DNA from: Anaerolineales bacterium
GTDB lineage: Bacteria; Chloroflexota; Anaerolineae; Anaerolineales; Villigracilaceae
Assembly: GCA_013140605.1 (NCBI GenBank)
Contig: JABFSL010000045.1
Coordinates: 1-42,863 of the forward strand
Direction: 5' to 3'
Length of the DNA: 42,863 nucleotides
Shown here: positions 7,166 through 29,982 of the stretch, piece after piece
How positions within the stretch are numbered: position 1 is the first letter of the stretch
Layout: each line of letters starts with the position of its first letter
The notes under the pieces: model-generated
Told to the model about the DNA's origin: nothing
The model's database searches: none
Seen by the model: the letters and a program-made list of their open reading frames with translations, nothing else
Translations under genes and position numbers: made by a program

Positions 7166-7174
7166 TCATTCTCC

Positions 7175-7201
7175 GTAGGGGCGGGGTAACCCCGCCCCTA
7201 C
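7175..7201. repeat. GTAGGGGC palindrome (single unit)
   Basis: GTAGGGGCGGGGT (7175-7187) and ACCCCGCCCCTAC (7189-7201) mirror each other around one A. It has the same GTAG/CTAC ends and G-rich stem as the 47-bp paired elements at 17780, 21084 and 28329, and lies just upstream of a gene start in the same cluster. Confidence 0.75.
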
Positions 7202-7214
7202 ATGATTTATATAA

Positions 7215-9736: not shown

Positions 9737-11452
9737 CTATTTTGCGATATAGCCTTGTTCTTCAAGATAAGTAAGGATCTTGCGGGCATTTTGTTCCGGG
9801 GTTGAATCAAAACCCTTGAGCGTAATTTCAGGTTCGATCGGCGGTTCGTAGGGATCATCCACACCGGTAAAGCCCATAGGCTTGCCATCGATCATCGCCT
9901 GGCGAGCCTTGGCATACAAGCCTTTTACATCACGCTGCTCGCAGACTTCAACAGGGGTATCCATGTATATTTCGATAAAGTTCTCGCCGACCATCTTGCG
10001 GGCTTCTGCGCGTGTGGCACGGTACGGGCTGATAGCCGCGCAGATCACCGCGCCGCTGGCGTGGACAATTTCACCAGCCACGAATCCGATGCGGATAATG
10101 TTGGTGTCGCGGTCTTCCTTGCTAAAGCCAAGTCCCTTGGAGAGATGTGTGCGAACCACATCACCATCAAGGATGGCGGTCTCACGTCCGCGCTCAAGCA
10201 GCAGCGTCGTAAGCACTTCGGATGTGGCGCTCTTGCCTGAACCGCTCAGGCCTGTGAACCAAATACAAAAACCCTGTTTGTGGCGCGGCGGGTACATCTC
10301 GCGCAGAATCTCGGCGGTCTCATGCCGTGTGAACCATTCAGGTAACAACTTGCCCTTGGCAAGATAATCATCACGGACTTGCGTGCCGGAGATATTGGCC
10401 GTCTTCGCGCCTGCGGGCACATCCTTCCCTTCCACATAGCGCTCTTCATCGGGAAGATAGACAAGCATCTCGAACGGAACCATCTTGACGCCGAGTTCGG
10501 CTTCGTACTTGGTCATCATTTCCTGCGCATCATACGGACCGTAGAACGGTTTGCCGCTCGCATCATTTCCCGGCCCTGCGTGATCGCGGCCCACAATAAA
10601 GTGATTCGCGCCGTGGTTGCGGCGGATAATGGCATGCAGCACCGCTTCCTTCGGGCCAGCCATGCGCATGGCCAATGGAAGCAGGCTGAGCATGGTATTG
10701 CTTTTATCATAATGATGATCCACCAACGCCTTGTAGGTGCGGACGCGGGTGTAGTGATCCACATCGCCGGGCTTGGTCATACCGACCACGGGATGAATGA
10801 TCAAAGAACCTTTGACTTCCGCAGCGGCGCGTTTGGTGAGTTCTTCGTGGATGCGATGCAGGGGATTACGAGTCTGGAAAGCGACTACATTATCATGTCC
10901 CATCTCTTCAAGCATGGCGCGCACCTGCGCGGGTGTATGACGTAAATTTACAAAGTCATAATACTTGGGCAGGTTGATAACTTTCAACGGACCGGAGATG
11001 CATACCTTGTTCCAGCGCTCCATCTCGGAAACCATCGGATGCTTGGAGTCAGTTGTGCCATAAGCCAGTGTGGCTTCGGTCTCCGCATCCCAGTGAAAGA
11101 CTTCATTAATTGTCATCACTGCGATCAGATCGAAATTTGCGCTGCGCAATGCCAGGTCTTCGCCCACTGTCGGCAGTTCTTTAGGATCAGCTGTCAGGGT
11201 GATGGGAAGCGGGAAGAGGGTTCCATCCGCAAGACGCATTTCCTTGAGCACACGATCATAATCCGCTTTGCCCATGAAAGTTGTCAGCGGCGAAAATCCG
11301 CCAGTGGCGATCAATTCAAGATCGCACATGTTGCGCATGGTGATTTTGATGGAAGGCAATTTCCCGGCGTGGGCGAGCAATTCTTCACGTTCCTTGCCCT
11401 CAGCAACCAGGTTAACTAATTTTCCACCATAGGGGGGGATCAACTTTGTCAT
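9737..11452 (-). CDS. sat: Bifunctional sulfate adenylyltransferase / APS kinase (PAPS synthase)
   Basis: This is a 571-residue protein. Residues 1-385 are an ATP sulfurylase: the catalytic QTRNPLHR (193-200) and GRDHAGPG (288-295), and an N-terminal PUA-like part. Residues 392-571 are an APS kinase: P-loop GLSGSGKS (401-408) and DGDVVRTHLSKGLGFSKEDRDTNI. Together they turn sulfate and ATP into PAPS, the donor for the sulfotransferase at 4055. No sulfate-reduction genes are nearby, which points to sulfation rather than assimilation. The start is the ATG at 11452, five bases after GGAG; a GTG two codons earlier is less likely. A strong dyad promoter lies upstream. Confidence 0.93.
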   Translation of the reverse strand: MTKLIPPYGGKLVNLVAEGKEREELLAHAGKLPSIKITMRNMCDLELIATGGFSPLTTFMGKADYDRVLKEMRLADGTLFPLPITLTADPKELPTVGEDLALRSANFDLIAVMTINEVFHWDAETEATLAYGTTDSKHPMVSEMERWNKVCISGPLKVINLPKYYDFVNLRHTPAQVRAMLEEMGHDNVVAFQTRNPLHRIHEELTKRAAAEVKGSLIIHPVVGMTKPGDVDHYTRVRTYKALVDHHYDKSNTMLSLLPLAMRMAGPKEAVLHAIIRRNHGANHFIVGRDHAGPGNDASGKPFYGPYDAQEMMTKYEAELGVKMVPFEMLVYLPDEERYVEGKDVPAGAKTANISGTQVRDDYLAKGKLLPEWFTRHETAEILREMYPPRHKQGFCIWFTGLSGSGKSATSEVLTTLLLERGRETAILDGDVVRTHLSKGLGFSKEDRDTNIIRIGFVAGEIVHASGAVICAAISPYRATRAEARKMVGENFIEIYMDTPVEVCEQRDVKGLYAKARQAMIDGKPMGFTGVDDPYEPPIEPEITLKGFDSTPEQNARKILTYLEEQGYIAK

Positions 11453-13174: not shown

Positions 13175-13260
13175 ATGTCGTTGCGAGGGCGATGGTTTTC
13201 GCCCGAAGCAATCCCCCTGAGCATTGGAGATTGCTTCGCAAATGACGCTCGCAACGACAT
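13175..13260. repeat. GTCRTTGCGAG palindromic element, copy 1
   Basis: Terminal arms ATGTCGTTGCGAG (13175-13187) and CTCGCAACGACAT (13248-13260) are exact mirrors. Inside, CGAAGCAATC (13204-13213) pairs with GATTGCTTCG (13229-13238). Relatives lie at 18790 and 33245. The right end touches the stop codon of the next gene. The type is a widespread dispersed palindromic repeat in bacteria (general knowledge). Confidence 0.85.
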
Positions 13261-14705
13261 TAGGAATTCAACACTTTCAAAATAAACTCTGCCGTTCGCT
13301 TGCCAGACATTCCATCCGTAGATGTGATCTCATCCTCGATAAACTTACGGCGTTCAGGATAATCAAGGGACGGATTTTTCAAGTACGCATTCAACATGGA
13401 ACGCAACTCCTTCTCAGTAGTTGCTACTCGTCCCGCCTTGGCCTCGCGGAAACGTTTGTGGGTGGGCCAGTTGCCGATTTCTTTGAGGGACAGAGAAAAT
13501 TTCTTCGGCTTGTTCCACCCGCCAGGAGTATCAATTGTTGCGGCGATCATTGGCGTGTCGTGGACAGCGGTCTCGACCAGCATGGTGGAATAAACAGTCA
13601 CCACCACATCGGAGTACGCCATCATGGAGGATTTCTCGTCCATATCTTCGCCGCCGTAGTAGCCGAGTGAACCGCCCAATGCAACGGGCTGGACGACATG
13701 CACGTTGGGATATTTCTTCTCCAACTCAAAAACTTGCGCGCGTTCGTCTGCAAAGATTTTCGGCTTATCCTGAAAATGACTCGGGTGCAAGCGGATCAAC
13801 AACTGCGAAGGCTCAGCCAATGCATCAGAAGAAACCAATTTCGCCAGCGCTTCGATGTTGGGGAAGTTCGGTGCAAAATGGACAAAACTGCTGGCGTATG
13901 AAATTAATTTACGTTGCGGGTGGAGCCCGTGCAGCTTGAAATATTCGTCACGCGGCATGAGCCACTGCTTGCGAAAATATCCGTCATACGAGGGGATGCC
14001 GCCCACATGCACATGCTCGGGGTTCCAATCTGAACCTTTGACGAGTTCCTCTTTTTGCAACTCAGACCAACACGTCGCCCATTGCACGTCTGCGCCAGAG
14101 ACGTTGTATGACGATGAATTGTCCCAGCCGACAATGACGGTCATGTTCGGGATTCCGCGCTTGGCAGATTCGCGCAGGAGGTAACGGTCCATGCGCCAGC
14201 CTGGAGTTGAAGCGATGACCATGTCGGGTTGATATTTGTCAAAAAGGTCAGTATACAGGCCCGGGGTAGGCGTGAAGCGGTTTTGCATCCGAATTAAAAA
14301 TTTGCGGGCAAAGGAAAAATTCCGCAGGAGGGGAATCATCAGCGCGGAGGGCATCCAAATGCCCAAACGGAATTTCCAGCCGTTCTCGCCCCACACTTCC
14401 CAAATGTGGCTGTCCATGGCTTCGGTGTTGATGCGGCGCGAGCCGCCCACACGGCGTAGGTAGGTGAGCAGCCATTGCCAGCGCGGGCTGACTTTTTTAG
14501 CGTAGTCATTGGCTTGCTTCAAACGCAAGCCTTCAAAAGTGAGTCCAGGTTGCGTGAAACGTGACGCGATCTTTTCTTTGGTGTCATCGTCGGTGAGGAC
14601 GACGACTTCAACGCCCGCAGCAAGCAGCGTCGAGACAACGTCGCTTTGCAAGAAGTAGATGATTGCCATGCCGTGGTCGGCGGAGATGAAGATACGTTTG
14701 GTCAC
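13260..14705 (-). CDS. GT-B-fold transferase (CDP-glycerophosphotransferase-like)
   Basis: This is a 481-residue soluble protein. It starts with MTKRIFISADHGMAIIYFLQSDVVSTLLAAGVEVVVLT, a Rossmann-like half typical of GT-B enzymes. Its second half has RLHPSHFQDKP and YSDVVVTVYSTMLVETAVHDTPMIAA, the arrangement seen in CDP-glycerol glycerophosphotransferases and capsule GT-B transferases. It has no clear membrane segment. Donor and acceptor are unknown; a role in assembling the cluster glycan fits. Its first 15 codons are duplicated at 14878-14922, showing that a paralogue once stood upstream. Confidence 0.72.
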   Translation of the reverse strand: MTKRIFISADHGMAIIYFLQSDVVSTLLAAGVEVVVLTDDDTKEKIASRFTQPGLTFEGLRLKQANDYAKKVSPRWQWLLTYLRRVGGSRRINTEAMDSHIWEVWGENGWKFRLGIWMPSALMIPLLRNFSFARKFLIRMQNRFTPTPGLYTDLFDKYQPDMVIASTPGWRMDRYLLRESAKRGIPNMTVIVGWDNSSSYNVSGADVQWATCWSELQKEELVKGSDWNPEHVHVGGIPSYDGYFRKQWLMPRDEYFKLHGLHPQRKLISYASSFVHFAPNFPNIEALAKLVSSDALAEPSQLLIRLHPSHFQDKPKIFADERAQVFELEKKYPNVHVVQPVALGGSLGYYGGEDMDEKSSMMAYSDVVVTVYSTMLVETAVHDTPMIAATIDTPGGWNKPKKFSLSLKEIGNWPTHKRFREAKAGRVATTEKELRSMLNAYLKNPSLDYPERRKFIEDEITSTDGMSGKRTAEFILKVLNS

Positions 14706-14872: not shown

Positions 14873-14877
14873 GGTGA

Positions 14878-14922
14878 TTGCCATGCCGTGGTCGGCGGAG
14901 ATGAAGATTCGTTTGGTCATGA
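14878..14922 (-). pseudogene. Remnant of a second GT-B transferase gene (first 15 codons)
   Basis: The minus strand from 14922 reads MTKRIFISADHGMAI, identical in protein to the start of the intact gene at 14705, with a few silent base differences. It then runs straight into the hairpins at 14872. The following upstream bases also resemble those before the intact gene (GAAGTTGGTTCTGTTT against GAGTTGATTCTGTTT). A paralogue was therefore present and has been lost except for its 5' end. Confidence 0.8.
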
Positions 14923-15425: not shown

Positions 15426-15463
15426 GCACGGGGATAAAATCGTCCGTGCTATTTTTACGAAGC
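15426..15463 (-). repeat. REP-like hairpin c, 3' side of RAYT gene
   Basis: GCACGG (15426-15431) and CCGTGC (15444-15449) form the stem, followed by TATTTTTACGAAGCC. On the minus strand it reads GGCTTCGTAAAAATAGC, then the hairpin. It stands just beyond the 3' end of the transposase gene. A GGCATTTTACCCGCTTCGG block before it is repeated, with changes, before hairpin e. Confidence 0.7.
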
Positions 15464-15488
15464 CGCTTCGGCAGGCTCAGCACGCCGC

Positions 15489-15896
15489 CTACGGGCTTAC
15501 TTGCTCCAATTGTGATTGCACTGTTCCATCCGCATGATGTTGTTTTTGGTTGTGAATGTATTTCACAATTGCAGAAAGATTTTTCTCGCCAAACGATAGT
15601 ACACCATATTCTTCCTGCCAGTAAAATTCAAAATCTGGTTTGATGACATGATTAACAAAATGCGATGTATTTCCTTTGACCTCACCTATAAATCTCGATA
15701 ATGCTATTTTCGGGGGGACGCTGACCGCGACATGAACGTGGTCTTCAATGCCGCCAATCGCGTAAATGAAACCTTCCAGTTCAATGGATTTTGCGGCAAT
15801 TGCGCGGTGCAAATCGGATTCAAATTCAGGCAGGATGATGGGCAACCGATTTTTCGTTCCCCAGATGAAATGATAGTAGAGTTTGTGGAATGACAT
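15489..15896 (-). CDS. REP-associated Y1 tyrosine transposase (RAYT, IS200/IS605 TnpA-like)
   Basis: This 135-residue protein has the HUH nuclease motif EDHVHVAV (His 53, His 55) and the catalytic tyrosine in VKYIHNQKQHH (Tyr 113). YHFIWGTKNRLPI at the start and WQEEYGVLSFGE before the tyrosine helix are typical of the domesticated Y1 transposases that act on single-stranded REP hairpins. ATG 15896 follows AAGGGAG at good spacing. No TnpB partner is present. Hairpins of one family stand on both sides in opposite orientation (15426 and 15927), the usual RAYT layout. The C-terminus is short after the tyrosine helix; it could be slightly truncated but the active site is complete. Confidence 0.9.
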   Translation of the reverse strand: MSFHKLYYHFIWGTKNRLPIILPEFESDLHRAIAAKSIELEGFIYAIGGIEDHVHVAVSVPPKIALSRFIGEVKGNTSHFVNHVIKPDFEFYWQEEYGVLSFGEKNLSAIVKYIHNQKQHHADGTVQSQLEQVSP

Positions 15897-15926
15897 AAAA
15901 CTCCCTTGCGAGGTCAGGTCGAAGAC

Positions 15927-15963
15927 CTTTGTACGAATAGCACGGACGTTCACGTCCGTTGCG
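15927..15963 (+). repeat. REP-like hairpin d, 5' side of RAYT gene
   Basis: The head CTTTGTACGAATA is followed by GCACGGACGT-TC-ACGTCCGT (15940-15959). The head and stem are nearly those of hairpin b, with one loop change and an extra T in the right arm. It is inverted relative to hairpin c across the transposase gene. Confidence 0.7.
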
Positions 15964-16194
15964 GGGCATGAGCGTGGATAAATCCTATCGGGCAGGATTT
16001 ATTTCCAGAGGCGCGGTGTTGCGGCTAGATGTGGCGCGAGTCGAAAGGCATTTTTCTGTTTCGATTGGCATTTTCCACACTTCGGATTCGCACAAGGTGC
16101 ATTATCCCGTTTCGATAAACATTCGCGGCATCTGCTAATCCGCACGGGGATAAATCACCCGTGCTATTTTTACGAAGCCCTACGGGCTATTCCT
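15964..16194. other. Non-coding repeat island segment with hairpin e
   Basis: No gene is supported here. ATAAATCCT/AGGATTTAT (15978-15986, 15994-16002) is a hairpin. CTGTTTCGATTGGCATTTTCC (16051-) repeats blocks found near 14737 and 15392. GCACGGG/CCCGTGC (16142-16148, 16158-16164) plus TATTTTTACGAAG is REP-like hairpin e, in minus orientation. AGCCC/GGGCT follows at 16176-16188. Confidence 0.6.
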
Positions 16195-16232
16195 GTTACG
16201 AATAATACCAACTGAAAATCTTGTTATATATG
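16195..16232 (-). pseudogene. Remnant of a second GT2 gene (last codons)
   Basis: The minus strand reads PIYNKIFSWYYS and a TAA stop. The intact GT2 gene at 16815 ends VYNKIFNWYYS-TAA. The base differences are mostly silent or conservative, as between true paralogues. The remnant is cut off upstream exactly where the palindrome at 16233 begins. Confidence 0.75.
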
Positions 16233-16279
16233 GGTGGTTTCGATACGGGCGAGAAGAACACTCGCCCTACTCAACCACC
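16233..16279. repeat. TTTCGATAC/CTCAACC palindrome E1
   Basis: GGTGGTT (16233-16239) and AACCACC (16273-16279) are the outer arms. GGGCGAG (16247-16253) and CTCGCCC (16261-16267) form the inner stem. The unpaired sides TCGATAC and TACTC are conserved in the other copies. The stop codon of the GIY-YIG gene (TGA on the minus strand, 16271-16273) and its last two Gly codons lie in its right arm. Confidence 0.8.
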
Positions 16280-16600
16280 GAGTTCACCATCTACCAAAAC
16301 TACATTATCAATTTTACTTCTATAAAAGACCTTCTTGGCGAGCACAGGCAAAAGTTGCGAATCGCCGTTTATCAGTGCTTCCCGTTTTGCCCTTCGCCAG
16401 CCTTGAACTTGCTTCTCTCTATAAAACGCGTCGGCAACGCGCTCGTACTCTTCACAATAAACCAGTTTCACTGGCAATCGGCGCGTTGTATATCTTGCGC
16501 CTAATCCTTCTTGATGTTCAGAGAGTCGGCGCCCCAGATTCTTGGTCGAGCCGACGTAATATGAATTATCACAACATTCAAGAATATACATCCATGCCAT
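16271..16600 (-). CDS. GIY-YIG nuclease family protein (UPF0213-like)
   Basis: This 109-residue protein has MYILECCDNSYYVGSTKNLGRRLSEH (GIY-YIG core with the conserved Arg in GRRL), then RYTTRRLPVKLVYCEEY and FYREKQVQGWRRAKREALI, the helix with the metal-binding Glu. The C-terminal 30 residues are extra. Relatives are small single-domain nucleases with unclear roles. It is bracketed by inverted palindromes E1 and E2 and ends inside E1 (DGELGG-stop). It is divorced from the surrounding glycan genes, so a mobile origin is likely. The ATG at 16600 has no strong ribosome site (AGAGAGTTTTT precedes it). Confidence 0.85.
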   Translation of the reverse strand: MAWMYILECCDNSYYVGSTKNLGRRLSEHQEGLGARYTTRRLPVKLVYCEEYERVADAFYREKQVQGWRRAKREALINGDSQLLPVLAKKVFYRSKIDNVVLVDGELGG

Positions 16601-16620
16601 AAAAACTCTCTATCCCATAC

Positions 16621-16667
16621 GGTGGTTGAGTAGCCCTGCGTGTTCGTCGCAGGGCGTATCGAAACCA
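16621..16667. repeat. TTTCGATAC/CTCAACC palindrome E2 (inverted)
   Basis: GGTGGTTGAGTA, stem GCCCTGCG, loop TGTTCGT, stem CGCAGGGC, then GTATCGAAACCAC. The element is in the opposite orientation to E1, so the two bracket the GIY-YIG gene as inverted copies. Stem sequences differ, but the ends and a GAACA loop core are kept. Confidence 0.8.
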
Positions 16668-16697
16668 CACCTCTGAATTTCAAGTTTACTTTTCATT

Positions 16698-16802
16698 GCT
16701 GGTTTCGACACCCGCACTTGCGTGCTGGTGCAAGTGTACGGGCGGCGGTGGTTGAGTAGCCGTGCAACGGCGTATCGAAACCCGCCGCCCTACTCAACCA
16801 GC
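16698..16802. repeat. Nested TTTCGATAC/CTCAACC palindromes E3
   Basis: The outer unit has GCTGGTTTCGACAC (16698-16711) and TACTCAACCAGC (16791-16802), with GGGCGGCGG (16740-16748) and CCGCCGCCC (16782-16790) as its stem. Its loop holds a complete inner unit in the other orientation (GGTTGAGTAGCCGT... to CGTATCGAAACC, 16749-16780). Another hairpin, CACTTGC/GCAAGTG, lies at 16715-16736. This is one element inside another. Confidence 0.75.
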
Positions 16803-16814
16803 GGAATATGTTTG

Positions 16815-17768
16815 TTACGAATAATACCAATTAAATATTTTGTTATACACCGCCAACAAAATCTTCTTGATAAACCCAATTTCCAACACACGCTTGCCTA
16901 AACTCACTTTCTTCTTACTCGTTACTCGTCCCTTCCCCAATTCCCCGCGCAAATAACCCAGTGTATTGGACATATTCATCGCCAGCGGATCGGAGACCAT
17001 CAGCCGCAGTAATCCCGCGTCGTTCATGCGCTTATCCAACTGGCGGACTTGCCCCATCGGCTTGTCCATGTCAAAGGGCAGGAATTGTCCCAGCGTGGAT
17101 TTGTATGCCGTGAACTGCCAGTGCGAAGCACCCGCAAGCGCGGTTACGTCTTTGTAGACTATTCTCCAGTCACTAGTCTCTGCATATACTTTCTTATTCT
17201 CTTCTTCAGTCTGCCCGAGCGAGAGATTGAATTCAAGGAAAGTTTCCCACGGAATGAATTGACCTTCATCCAATGTCGCGTTCTTTTTTGCCCACTCCAA
17301 CGTTGACGAATATAACTCCGGCGAAGTACGGTACGGACGAGCCGTCACCATGCCCACGTTCGGGAAGGTTTCGAGAAGCTCCACAGAACGCGAAAGCCAG
17401 TTCGGGGAAAACAACACGTCCGCATCGGTGTAGGCAATGATCTCACCCGGCGCGCCCGTCAGCATCACATTCCATGCGCCACCCTTGCCCATGTTCTTTT
17501 CAGAGAGAATCAAATATTGAATCCGCCCCTCTTCTTTTTCTTTCACTAGATACTCGCGCACTTCGGGGCACGAGCCATTATCGAAGACCATCAAGTCGAA
17601 CGGCAGTCCCGCATCCTTGCGCATGGATTCCAAACTTACTTTTAATACATCCAATGTCTCAGCGTAAAATCCGCTCAAAAACGGAATGTAATTTAATAAC
17701 GCAACAGTCACCCGCTCAGGGCGGGCTACGTCTTTAACGAACTTGGCGGGGTTTTGGCCTTTACGCAT
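16815..17768 (-). CDS. GT2-family glycosyltransferase
   Basis: This is a 317-residue GT-A enzyme. Motifs: VTVALLNYIPFLSGFYAETLDVLKVSL at the start, FDNGSCPEVREYL, NMGKGGAWN, and the metal-binding YTDADVLFSPNW. It adds a sugar from a nucleotide donor during glycan assembly at the cytoplasmic face; the sugar is unknown. The C-terminus is basic and amphipathic (KKILLAVYNKIFNWYYS), a possible membrane contact. AAGGA precedes the ATG. A remnant of a paralogue's 3' end survives at 16195. Confidence 0.85.
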   Translation of the reverse strand: MRKGQNPAKFVKDVARPERVTVALLNYIPFLSGFYAETLDVLKVSLESMRKDAGLPFDLMVFDNGSCPEVREYLVKEKEEGRIQYLILSEKNMGKGGAWNVMLTGAPGEIIAYTDADVLFSPNWLSRSVELLETFPNVGMVTARPYRTSPELYSSTLEWAKKNATLDEGQFIPWETFLEFNLSLGQTEEENKKVYAETSDWRIVYKDVTALAGASHWQFTAYKSTLGQFLPFDMDKPMGQVRQLDKRMNDAGLLRLMVSDPLAMNMSNTLGYLRGELGKGRVTSKKKVSLGKRVLEIGFIKKILLAVYNKIFNWYYS

Positions 17769-17779
17769 TTATATTCCTT

Positions 17780-17826
17780 GTAGGGGCAGGGTCTCCCTGC
17801 CCAGGGCGGCGAGACGCCGCCCCTAC
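17780..17826. repeat. 47-bp paired hairpin (GTAG...CTAC), copy 1
   Basis: GTAG, stem GGGCAGGG-TCT-CCCTGCCC (17784-17802), A, stem GGGCGGCG-AGA-CGCCGCCC (17804-17822), CTAC. Each half is a GTAG head plus an 8-bp hairpin with three-base loop, the two halves facing each other as in BIME-type REP pairs. Same-length copies lie at 21084 and 28329. Confidence 0.85.
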
Positions 17827-17829
17827 GCG

Positions 17830-18765
17830 TTATTTGAATAATTTCTTAAATCGCTTCTTCCATCTCTTCGGCCTTGCGATATTTTCAATCGACTTCTCAG
17901 GCAGGAAGAAAAATATCGCGCGCAGGAACAACTCCACGCCGCGCATGAATCGCAGATAAGATAATCGCGGGCGGGCAAGTTTACCATCTACAAGGCGATG
18001 AGTTGAATCCAAAATCGTATAGCGGATGTTCGCCTGTCCACCCGCGAGGCGGATATTCTCATTTGTATCAGGATGTTCGTAATGCGACTTCCCACCAGGC
18101 AGATGGCTGTAATCATGGTTCTGATGCACGATCATCACCGACGGCGTGCAGTCGATCACCGGCCATTTTTCACTGCGTGCCTTGTAGATCATCCAATTAT
18201 CCCAACCTGCACGGCCGATGATAAAGTTCGGGATGTCTTGATAGCAGGATTTTGGAAAAAGGAAAAAATCGCTTCCAGCAGGACGGTGAAGCTGATTCTG
18301 TTTTCTGACAGATTCCCTCAGGCCTGACTCCCACCCTGCGGCGAAATCCAGCGGAGTGGCAATGTCATAATCCCAACGCTGACTCAACAACACAAATCTC
18401 TGGAGTCCGACAGCTTGCTGTCGGTTGTTTAGCAGCAAGCTGCTGGACTCCAGAGCGACATCTACAAAATCAGGCATGAGAATCATGTCCGCGTTGATGA
18501 TACACAGTAATTCGCTATCACTATTTTCTCTCGCCAATTGAAACATGGACGAGATCAACGGCGTGCCAGTTTCATTCCGTGCCACATTCGGCAAATGCAT
18601 CACACCAAGTTCTTTGGCGGCTTCGGCAAGTCCCATCTCTTCGCCAAGCAAAATGACTTCGACGTTAGGAAGCAAAGTCCACGAGTGGATCGCGTTGCGT
18701 TGAATCATCGCAATGTGCGGATTTGTAAAAGGCTTGGGGGCGGAGAAGAGAGTTATCAGTTGCAT
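17830..18765 (-). CDS. GT-A-like glycosyltransferase
   Basis: This 311-residue protein starts MQLITLFSAPKPF. It has the acidic metal-site-like INADMILMPDFV near residue 90 and RPAGSDFFLFPK and GWDNWMIYKA in the acceptor half, as in GT2-like enzymes. It is basic at the C-terminus (RPKRWKKRFKKLFK), as many membrane-associated transferases are. A 54-bp palindromic element is inserted in frame after INADMILMPDFVDVA (18400-18453, about residues 105-122). It must form a surface loop close to the metal site. The ribosome site is weak. Activity is likely but the insert makes it less certain. Confidence 0.72.
   Translation of the reverse strand: MQLITLFSAPKPFTNPHIAMIQRNAIHSWTLLPNVEVILLGEEMGLAEAAKELGVMHLPNVARNETGTPLISSMFQLARENSDSELLCIINADMILMPDFVDVALESSSLLLNNRQQAVGLQRFVLLSQRWDYDIATPLDFAAGWESGLRESVRKQNQLHRPAGSDFFLFPKSCYQDIPNFIIGRAGWDNWMIYKARSEKWPVIDCTPSVMIVHQNHDYSHLPGGKSHYEHPDTNENIRLAGGQANIRYTILDSTHRLVDGKLARPRLSYLRFMRGVELFLRAIFFFLPEKSIENIARPKRWKKRFKKLFK
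18400..18453. repeat. 54-bp in-frame coding palindromic element, copy 2
   Basis: CTGGAGTCC (18400-18408) and GGACTCCAG (18445-18453) are the outer arms, extended to CTCTGGAG/CTCCAGAG in context. The inner hairpins are GACAG-CTTG-CTGTC and GCAGC-AA-GCTGC. Length and the AGCTTGCTG/CAGCAAGCT positions match the copy at 9125. It is translated in a different phase here (LESSSLLLNNRQQAVGLQ) and is stop-free in both. Confidence 0.8.
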
Positions 18766-21071: not shown

Positions 21072-21083
21072 AATTATCACCAT

Positions 21084-21130
21084 GTAGGGGCGGGGTCTCC
21101 CCGCCCTGGGCGGCGAAACGCCGCCCCTAC
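21084..21130. repeat. 47-bp paired hairpin (GTAG...CTAC), copy 2
   Basis: GTAG, GGGCGGGG-TCT-CCCCGCCC, T, GGGCGGCG-AAA-CGCCGCCC, CTAC. The right half has the same stem as in copies 1 and 3. It lies between the AAC(3)-like gene and the DUF4910 gene. Confidence 0.87.
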
Positions 21131-21139
21131 GTCACATAA

Positions 21140-28318: not shown

Positions 28319-28328
28319 TTGTTTATCC

Positions 28329-28375
28329 GTAGGGGCGGGGTTTCCCCGCCCAGGGCGGCAAGACGCCGCCCCTAC
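28329..28375. repeat. 47-bp paired hairpin (GTAG...CTAC), copy 3
   Basis: GTAG, GGGCGGGG-TTT-CCCCGCCC, A, GGGCGGCA-AGA-CGCCGCCC (one mismatch), CTAC. The CTA at 28372-28374 is the minus-strand TAG stop of the capsule-type transferase gene, as in the copy at 19704. Confidence 0.87.
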
Positions 28376-29982
28376 AATTTATTCTTCCACGTAAAAGGTT
28401 CGTTCACCAAAAAATCAAACGTATCTTTAAATTGCGCCAGACCTTCTTCGCTCAACACTCTCTCCAAAGGCCAGATTTCGAGATCGTCCCAGAAGTTCAT
28501 CAAGCGCCAGGGGAATGGGCGTGGATATTCGAAGAAGAAACGATAAGCGTAATTCCATGCAAATTCGGTTTGTTTCTCATCCAATTGATGGGCGGGAATA
28601 TCCGCCAAAACTTTTTCGAGGGTGGCGTAGTATTCATCCCATGTGTTTGGGTCAAGTGTGAAGCCGCGTCCGCGATAATGGGTCTCGCCGCAGGAGATGA
28701 CGGGGCGGCCGTTCATCGCTGTTTCGAGTCCGACTGTGGTGGTGTACGCAAGGCCAACATCCGCGATTTCGATCAAGTCATACGTGTTGATCTTGTCCAA
28801 CGCGCCAATGACATGGATATGGTTGGGGAGTTCAGGTAACGCTTCCCGCACAACCGTTCCCATTGATTTGGCCTGCGGGACAAGTCTTTCACCGGGATGA
28901 ACGCGGATGACCATTTGCACATCAGTCCACTTTGCAAAATATTGAACGGTCTTCGTGATCCATTCGGTCATGGATGATGCAAAGATGTCACGTCCCAAAG
29001 TAAGGCTGTCGCCTAAAACATTTGCGGCGAGCATCACCACGGGACGGTCATCGAGATTAAGCAATTTACGAGTCTCTTGCGCGCCCTGCGAAGAGACGTA
29101 TTGCCAGAGTCGTTTTGATTTGCCCCACACGCGAGCGCCGCGGCGGGCGTTTTCCAAATCGGCTAAACGTTCGAACATTGCTTCGGTCATCGGCAGATGA
29201 CAGCGCGCATTCACAATGTAATCGGTATCCTGTTTCATAATTGACGAATTTTGCGCGAGCCAAATCTGTTCGCGCTGGTCGTTGAATTCGTAGGTGACAG
29301 CATCAATGTTCAAGTAGCGCGCCACGCGGAAGAAAATCCCCATTTCGAGAATCAATCCGTTTGGAATTAATACAACATCAGGTTTATTGGATTGCAAATA
29401 TTCAAATGCGGCTTTGGCGGCGAATGTGTTGCGCTGAATCCGCAAGTCATATAACGCGCGGTCGCCTGCGTTGTTCATGTCCACTTCTTCGCGCATCAGG
29501 GTATATTGCACATCCCAGAGCGAGATCTCTTTTACATCAGCTTGGAGAATGTTTGGGAGAGCAGAATCAGGCTTGAGGTCAAGAAGAGAGGCGTGTTCGA
29601 TTAATGGGGATAATGCCGAAAGGGCATCGCGTGTGTGAAGGATGCGCTGACGCTGTGTGAAGTTATCCTTTTGCTTGTGCCACTCGGAGTAGGGCAAAGT
29701 CAACAATGTGACTTTATGTCCGAGACCGGCAAGAGTCAAACCAAGATAAGCAGATTGCTCGATCCAGTAATGAAGCGTGGCGAAGAATAAAACTTTTTTT
29801 CCGCGCTTCGCGTTTTTTGTAAACGGCTCAACAACCGCGCGCGCCACCGGCAGGGAATTTTGCAAACGATCCAAATTGAAATGATCTTTGCGCGGACGAT
29901 TCCTGGAGCGAAGCATCCAATCGATTTCAGCAGTGAAGGGCAGGTCGCCCATTAGTTCCCGGAGGGTGGTTTTATTTGACAT
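28372..29982 (-). CDS. Capsule-type GT-B glycosyltransferase
   Basis: This 536-residue protein has VLFFATLHYWIEQSAYLGLTLAGLGHKVTLL in the first GT-B half and MVIRVHPGERLVPQAKSMG plus ADVGLAYTTTVGLETAMNGRPVISCGETHYRGRGFTLDP in the second. These match the capsule_synth/LipB-type transferases, which act at the base or repeat of capsular glycans. ATG 29982 follows GGGA at good spacing; a TTG one codon earlier is less likely. The gene follows the Wzt gene downstream of a paired hairpin. Confidence 0.82.
   Translation of the reverse strand: MSNKTTLRELMGDLPFTAEIDWMLRSRNRPRKDHFNLDRLQNSLPVARAVVEPFTKNAKRGKKVLFFATLHYWIEQSAYLGLTLAGLGHKVTLLTLPYSEWHKQKDNFTQRQRILHTRDALSALSPLIEHASLLDLKPDSALPNILQADVKEISLWDVQYTLMREEVDMNNAGDRALYDLRIQRNTFAAKAAFEYLQSNKPDVVLIPNGLILEMGIFFRVARYLNIDAVTYEFNDQREQIWLAQNSSIMKQDTDYIVNARCHLPMTEAMFERLADLENARRGARVWGKSKRLWQYVSSQGAQETRKLLNLDDRPVVMLAANVLGDSLTLGRDIFASSMTEWITKTVQYFAKWTDVQMVIRVHPGERLVPQAKSMGTVVREALPELPNHIHVIGALDKINTYDLIEIADVGLAYTTTVGLETAMNGRPVISCGETHYRGRGFTLDPNTWDEYYATLEKVLADIPAHQLDEKQTEFAWNYAYRFFFEYPRPFPWRLMNFWDDLEIWPLERVLSEEGLAQFKDTFDFLVNEPFTWKNKL

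Follow-up and report, generated by a model that had tools for sequence, protein, structure and literature searches.

Short palindromic repeats are common in the intergenic DNA of many bacteria, and many families of them have no known agent of spread. The question is raised by a contig of an Anaerolineales bacterium (JABFSL010000045.1, assembly GCA_013140605.1), the whole 42,863-nucleotide stretch of which is called the window here: a small gene for a GIY-YIG nuclease stands in it between two such palindromes. Is this nuclease the enzyme that moves the repeats around it?

The nuclease gene occupies positions 16271-16600 on the minus strand and, according to the list of open reading frames and Pfam, encodes a protein of 109 amino acid residues. 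A Pfam profile search matches this protein to PF01541 (GIY-YIG; E 2.1e-17, 63.6 bits), and it carries the signature (...REKQVQGWRRAKREALI) of what is termed class I below. The domain is present together with the catalytic Tyr, Arg, His and Glu positions, which we take to be those assigned from I-TevI. Among the matches listed, its closest named relatives come from Anaerolineales and Chloroflexi MAGs. Palindrome E1 (16233-16279, plus strand) is characterized by the form GGTGGTTTCGATAC-hairpin-CTACTCAACCACC, that is GGTGGTT-TCGATAC-hairpin-CTACTC-AACCACC, and E2 (16621-16668, minus strand) is an inverted repeat of the E1 type situated 20 bases upstream of the nuclease start codon; the two hairpins have the outer arm and the core in common. 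The bracketing of the gene by inverted palindromes, proposed in a preliminary description made from the sequence alone, is therefore real at this locus. The same description had the stop codon supplied by the repeat, and the gene does end in CTC GGT GGT TGA (Leu-Gly-Gly-stop) within E1; because these last codons are read from the repeat, the gene shares 9 bases with E1. Folded as single-stranded DNA and compared with shuffled sequences, E1 and E2 give z values of -5.4 and -4.9, with 0/200 shuffles as good in either case, and the third element, E3, gives -3.1 (2/200).

E3 (16700-16801, plus strand) had been taken for a copy of the unit from which the gene is missing; its partnership with E2 and a copy nested in it lead us to reject this reading. 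The two are the left (E2) and right (E3) halves of one REPIN-like pair, consisting of a minus copy, a 31-base spacer and a plus copy, an arrangement that recurs in this genome. The spacer (16669-16699, to which no strand is assigned) resembles those of REPINs elsewhere in the genome, with BLAST matches at C45:6111-6216, C45:6266-6358 and C106:2596-2703. E3 contains a further palindrome, a complete minus copy (16750-16782) nested within the loop of GGGCGGCGG...CCGCCGCCC. Across the 3.93-Mb source genome the pattern GGTTTCGATAC-N5..35-CTACTCAACC is found 38 times, the reversed control giving 0, and a scan of 30 loci reveals 12 inverted pairs of 109-145 bp that end in CGGTGGTTGAG...CTCAACCACCG or near variants. 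The palindromes thus resemble REPINs in being multicopy (38 exact copies) and in forming inverted pairs (12). The GAACA loop, which had been given as a feature of the elements, is present in 12 of the 38 copies by our own count. Two further repeats of the window may be mentioned. Another family, GTAGGGGCGGGG...CCGCCCCTAC, occurs at 7169-7204, 17778-17834, 21083-21138 and 28328-28383, and a 45-bp direct repeat of 98% identity at 14660-14704 and 14875-14919 represents a partial duplication, one copy of which stands at the beginning of an ORF (13260-14705).

The whole unit of the window is flanked by a direct repeat (D8; 46 nt, 80% identity between the copies). Its left copy (16183-16228) is a duplicate of the 3′-end of a neighbouring gene, and its right, native copy (16802-16847) holds the last codons of that gene, the ORF at 16815-17768, which on our reading of its sequence is a putative glycosyltransferase. 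In three relatives that have no nuclease gene here (L265, L267 and L268), both copies match one single place. In a search of the genus covering 57 genomes, at least three besides the source genome (G243, G207 and G222) have the unit where the window has it, and at 17 of 19 relatives' loci the neighbouring glycosyltransferase gene is present with no GIY-YIG match in the flank covered. As the left flanks differ among the relatives, the intergenic stretch of the window itself provides no clean empty site. Several sites in this one genus carry the nuclease gene.

Elsewhere, genome G236 possesses a unit of about 610 bp, built as repeat pair-gene-repeat pair, which is absent from G235 and G240; in its place these two hold another palindrome, about 80 bp long, and G237 a different insert of 1.1 kb. 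A REPIN of G236 (L310) is likewise absent from G237, where flanks of 95 and 100% identity enclose another palindrome instead. The preliminary description had called for a comparison of empty with filled sites, and both a REPIN and a repeat-gene-repeat unit are thus present or absent at orthologous sites, one site each, with the differences ending at the outer arms. The comparison genomes hold other palindromes at both empty sites, as judged by eye, which points to replacements rather than clean insertions; in these few cases, two in number, new copies seem to replace older hairpins. As regards the short target-site duplication of classical insertion sequences, the window unit has the long 46-nt direct repeat around it, and no direct repeat was seen by eye at these two insertions. 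The further paired stretches of G236 and G237 include one shared REPIN and one rearranged place, and the others have no overlap. As a separate observation, the G237 insert (G237:C1, about 3295530-3296670; L296, L301) contains an ORF between palindromes TTAACCGCGAAGC...CTTGGCGGTTAA. By our own reading this ORF resembles a gene for a PD-(D/E)XK-type nuclease, and the insert is possibly another nuclease-repeat pair.

Five of the six nearest non-self matches to the window protein (L066-L071) are surrounded by GGTTTCGATAC/CTACTCAACC repeats or by the GGTC variant of these; at the remaining one, L071, different palindromes occur on one side. More distant homologs adjoin other repeats, such as GCATCCT-TCGATAC...CTACTC-AGGATGC and GCATCCT-TCGACT...CGCTC-AGGATGC, and the flanks of some (L078, L079 and L081) contain no repeat by the formula given next. 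The repeats next to such genes in several phyla have the form X-TCG-N-CTC-X′, where X′ is the reverse complement of X; X differs from clade to clade and TCG...CTC stays constant. In scanning for this formula, X was set to at least 5 bases and N to 2-70. The window protein was used to search a class sample of 199 genomes, with matches in 89, and 80 named loci were taken from genome_contigs as the best 80 of at least 534 confirmed relatives, six of them being loci already examined. The flanks of the 80 loci vary from group to group; in 31 loci that were inspected, the repeats we recognised fit X-TCG-N-CTC-X′.

The association is far above chance. The core TCGA...CTC has 212 matches no more than 300 bp away from one of the 80 genes (4.44/kb, compared with 0.064/kb beyond 1.5 kb), and 71 permuted cores have 0-4 near matches each. 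A TCG...CTC copy is found within 350 bp at 74 of the 80 loci and on both sides at 49, where 500 random placements of the same boxes in the same DNA give means of 5.4 and 0.11 and maxima of 13 and 2, respectively. With phylum groups assigned by hand from the record titles, loci with a copy comprise 19/22 in Chloroflexota, 23/25 in Bacteroidota, 20/20 in Cyanobacteria, 7/8 in Proteobacteria/Desulfobacterota and 5/5 in five other groups. The density of the formula falls from 6.57/kb at 0-250 bp from the gene to 0.09/kb beyond 5 kb, a background which is mostly coding DNA, so that the fold change relative to intergenic DNA alone would be smaller. Since the formula was derived from part of these loci, the count was redone on previously unexamined ones: a copy is near 39/42 and on both sides of 27/42, and outside Chloroflexota the corresponding values are 30/30 and 20/30. 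The preliminary description would have fallen had such palindromes proved unlinked to GIY-YIG genes elsewhere; the link extends through several phyla.

Two other features of the window are not general. Around 111 class I genes, which include some duplicate loci, the nearest repeats are oriented (-,+) in 23, (+,-) in 21, (+,+) in 18 and (-,-) in 6; 34 genes have a repeat on one side only and nine have none by the strict formula. A fixed inverted orientation is thereby ruled out, and of the proposed unit with inverted ends it is the bracketing at the window locus that stands. The repeat-supplied stop, true of the window gene, is likewise rejected as a trait of the system, since GGTTGAG provides the stop in 6/111 genes, a count that covers GGTTGAG-supplied stops only.

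Which nucleases have repeats can be read from a tree of 185 GIY-YIG proteins (179 unique), to which 60 regions of other GIY-YIG matches from the class sample were added. The best-separating branch (support 93) has a repeat at 102/116 genes on one side and at 2/63 on the other (Fisher 1.8e-31, a value in which relatedness and the choice of branch are unaccounted for). The linked side, where 14/116 genes lack a strict motif, comprises class I, the window type, and a second type, class III; the fewest changes of the repeat label on the tree amount to 11. The 63 unlinked genes, which include one of the source genome's own (L002), are of like size and fold and so serve as a built-in negative control. 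An assignment of classes by regular expression was rejected in favour of the tree, as it mislabelled L074 and placed the unlinked-looking L225 and L241 in class I. Among the 30 best loci for L216, a class III query, a copy is near 20 and on both sides of 11, with 60 near matches as against at most 6 for permuted cores. The source genome possesses a class III gene of its own (L001), its second small GIY-YIG gene; at that locus (G000:C132, 1320-1850) the gene is flanked by GTCATTGCGAGG...GAAGCAATC palindromes, whose sequence conforms to X-TTCG...CTC-X′ (X = ATTGC).

Conservation of the catalytic positions extends across class I, class III and the unlinked clade; within class I, each of Y5, Y15, R25, H29 and E62 is missing from one row at most among those having a letter there. 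Other residues follow the repeats. In class I, K63, W68 and K72 hardly vary (110/110 for both W68 and K72); they are frequent in class III (W68 in 8/11) and occur in a minority of the unlinked proteins (W68 in 9/63, K72 in 14/63). The arm X also follows the nuclease: when the four core-proximal bases of X are compared on the tree, genes with the same X encode closer nucleases to a degree that 0/1000 shuffles reach (n=102), and this applies within Chloroflexota alone as well (n=48). The co-variation does not fully separate descent of the nuclease from that of the host. All 14 further copies examined in the genus have repeats of GGTT/GGTC type on both sides, eight with GGTC arms only, two with both and four (L292-L295) with GGTT arms only; the proteins of the last four are 76-79% identical to that of the window.

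The exact GGTT pattern occurs in 6/7 genomes that have a homolog of at least 57% identity and in 15/192 others, part of the 6/7 being trivial because copies beside the gene count, and at least 20 copies are found in 3/7 versus 4/192. Among the 15, four genomes are rich in repeats with no close nuclease detected (G087, 82 copies; G108, 50; G097, 31; and G128, 25), which counts against the nuclease as their agent, some genomes being incomplete and G097 having a nuclease match of 22 residues. A count of 5/5 genomes with a GGTT-type nuclease having the repeat, against 16/194, was not used as evidence, being circular because the nuclease type had been set by the flanking repeats. A tblastn search of viral contigs with query A1 found no relative. 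Plasmids provided 38 records with matches (best 50% identity), three of which were examined: a Sphingomonas plasmid (L355) has one repeat at the 3′-end of its GIY-YIG gene, a Methylobacterium plasmid (L356) has no repeat at its gene, and neither does Bacillus yazA in a plasmid record (L357), which is of the unlinked type by our own reading. Outside Chloroflexota, many class I genes (in L121-L180, for instance L136 at 10001-10267) adjoin type I restriction genes, frequently between hsdM and hsdS and on the same strand. An HsdM or HsdS match lies within 1.5 kb in 25/80 loci, all queries being from Microcystis; of these 25, L130 belongs to Chloroflexota.

How, then, do the repeats spread? One possibility is that they are GTAG-tagged REPs of the usual kind, that a Y1/HUH transposase moves them and that the GIY-YIG gene is a passenger. 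GTAG does stand beside the stem in the Anaerolineae form of the repeat, as in RAYT-linked REPs, and the window has an IS200-like Y1_Tnp gene (15489-15953) about 280 bp from E1. Y1_Tnp genes are present in 21/21 repeat-bearing genomes of the class sample and in 119/178 others (p 6e-4), so presence as such leaves room for a transposase. Adjacency makes it unlikely as the agent: a Y1-like gene lies within 2 kb in 1/94 class I loci (90 distinct; five query proteins were used, which may miss distant ones), of the source genome's seven Y1 loci, six lack such repeats to a distance of about 1.5 kb, the window's being the only exception, and the Flavobacteria and cyanobacteria forms examined have no GTAG beside a stem. 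The Y1 gene of the window is moreover flanked by other repeats, and taken as a whole the passenger account seems to us quite improbable. The Y1_Tnp gene has direct repeats of its own (CGTGCTATTTTTACGAAGCC, at 15437-15464 and 16152-16179) and a GCACGGACGTTCACGTCCGT palindrome beside it; with these it likely forms a separate RAYT-like unit.

GIY-YIG domains are known in homing endonucleases, and the gene itself might be the selfish party, the palindromes being its landing or recognition sites and owing their own spread to host repair, replication slippage or a transposase. Its occurrence at several sites within one genus, the repeats in genomes with no close gene detected and their mixed orientation would all suit such a guest. 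The shift of X with the nuclease clade speaks against it, as does the fact that E1 and E2 are each whole palindromes, which means that the gene interrupts no single site, and we consider a homing-type guest rather unlikely. Alternatively, the repeats could be operators, or RNA or DNA structures that regulate the nuclease or are checked by it, for example through trimming of extruded hairpins, and would spread independently of it. Tight linkage, a conserved active site and a covarying X would follow from this too, and the two compared sites are intergenic, where terminators would be. In some genomes, however, tens of further copies lie at a distance from the gene, and these, like presence or absence between relatives, need a process of spreading; this explanation appears improbable. 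Finally, palindrome-rich intergenic DNA around small mobile genes might produce the association by chance or through annotation. The background densities do come from all DNA, and the intergenic background is higher than stated; the permuted cores, the random boxes, the unlinked GIY-YIG genes and the unseen loci contradict this account, which is scarcely credible.

The explanation that we favour, if with some reserve, is a REPIN-like system whose dedicated enzyme is the small GIY-YIG nuclease in place of a RAYT transposase. Linkage and co-variation of repeats and nuclease we regard as established. That the nuclease acts on the repeats is very probable; that it drives their spread is rather likely. 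The repeats would be palindromes X-TCG-N-CTC-X′ able to form hairpins, in the source genome often as inverted pairs of about 110-145 bp, with the nuclease gene inside a cluster of them. The nuclease would recognise X and the TCG/CTC core of an extruded or single-stranded hairpin and nick or cut there, and repair would copy the REPIN, or now and then the repeat-gene-repeat unit, to an intergenic position elsewhere. This site may already hold a palindrome, a preference suggested by the two sites compared. In its widest form, the proposal is that GIY-YIG nucleases of two clades mobilise a superfamily of X-TCG-N-CTC-X′ palindromes in a transposase-free manner, each reading its own X, perhaps via the segment EKQ-x-x-GW-x-R-x-K; here we regard the arguments for and against as evenly balanced. 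If true, it would explain many so far unexplained palindromes between the genes of Chloroflexota, Cyanobacteria, Bacteroidota, Proteobacteria and other groups. One formula and a linked nuclease would give many palindrome families a common origin, and the question of what moves them would become a test of one small enzyme and one hairpin. A transposase-free GIY-YIG nuclease would be added to the ways in which DNA spreads, and, if the arm X that a nuclease prefers can be read from its own genome, enzymes and sites would be at hand as matched pairs. Among the papers listed in a literature search of titles and the beginnings of abstracts, with subscription papers and preprints outside its scope, none links a GIY-YIG gene to such repeats.

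Comparison with known systems helps to place this one. Classical insertion sequences have terminal inverted repeats in a fixed orientation, and here the orientations are mixed. GIY-YIG homing endonucleases, whether in group I introns or free-standing, spread by cutting according to the usual model and have the GIY-YIG catalytic core in common with the window protein. The gene lies neither in an intron nor in a split site, there being whole palindromes on both sides; Rfam at gathering scores gave no family match in the window and no intron was found, and the protein reaches 19.2 bits against the NCBIfam model grpIintron_endo, the cut-off of which is 56.05. The UPF0213 or small GIY-YIG proteins 1zg2 and 1ywl are of the same domain kind and size (E 2.4e-11 and 1.1e-9); we know of no link to repeats for these structures. 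The GTAG- and CGTC-tagged REPs are hairpin repeats of several phyla that form dimers and lie in intergenic DNA (PMC3733652). Their formula differs from X-TCG...CTC-X′, and the passages of that article available to us, in the text of which "nuclease" occurs five times, mention no GIY-YIG link (PMC3733652). The closest likeness is to REPIN/RAYT systems, in which the palindromes are likewise short, frequently paired in inverted orientation and present in numerous non-coding copies, and flank a linked nuclease gene. In those systems the enzyme is a Y1/HUH tyrosine transposase and here it is a GIY-YIG nuclease; the repeats here have outer arms X with a TCG/CTC core, and GTAG, which adjoins the stem in the window form, is not constant. 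As the linked gene is not the Y1 transposase that defines REPIN/RAYT, we do not file the present system there, though the two would work alike.
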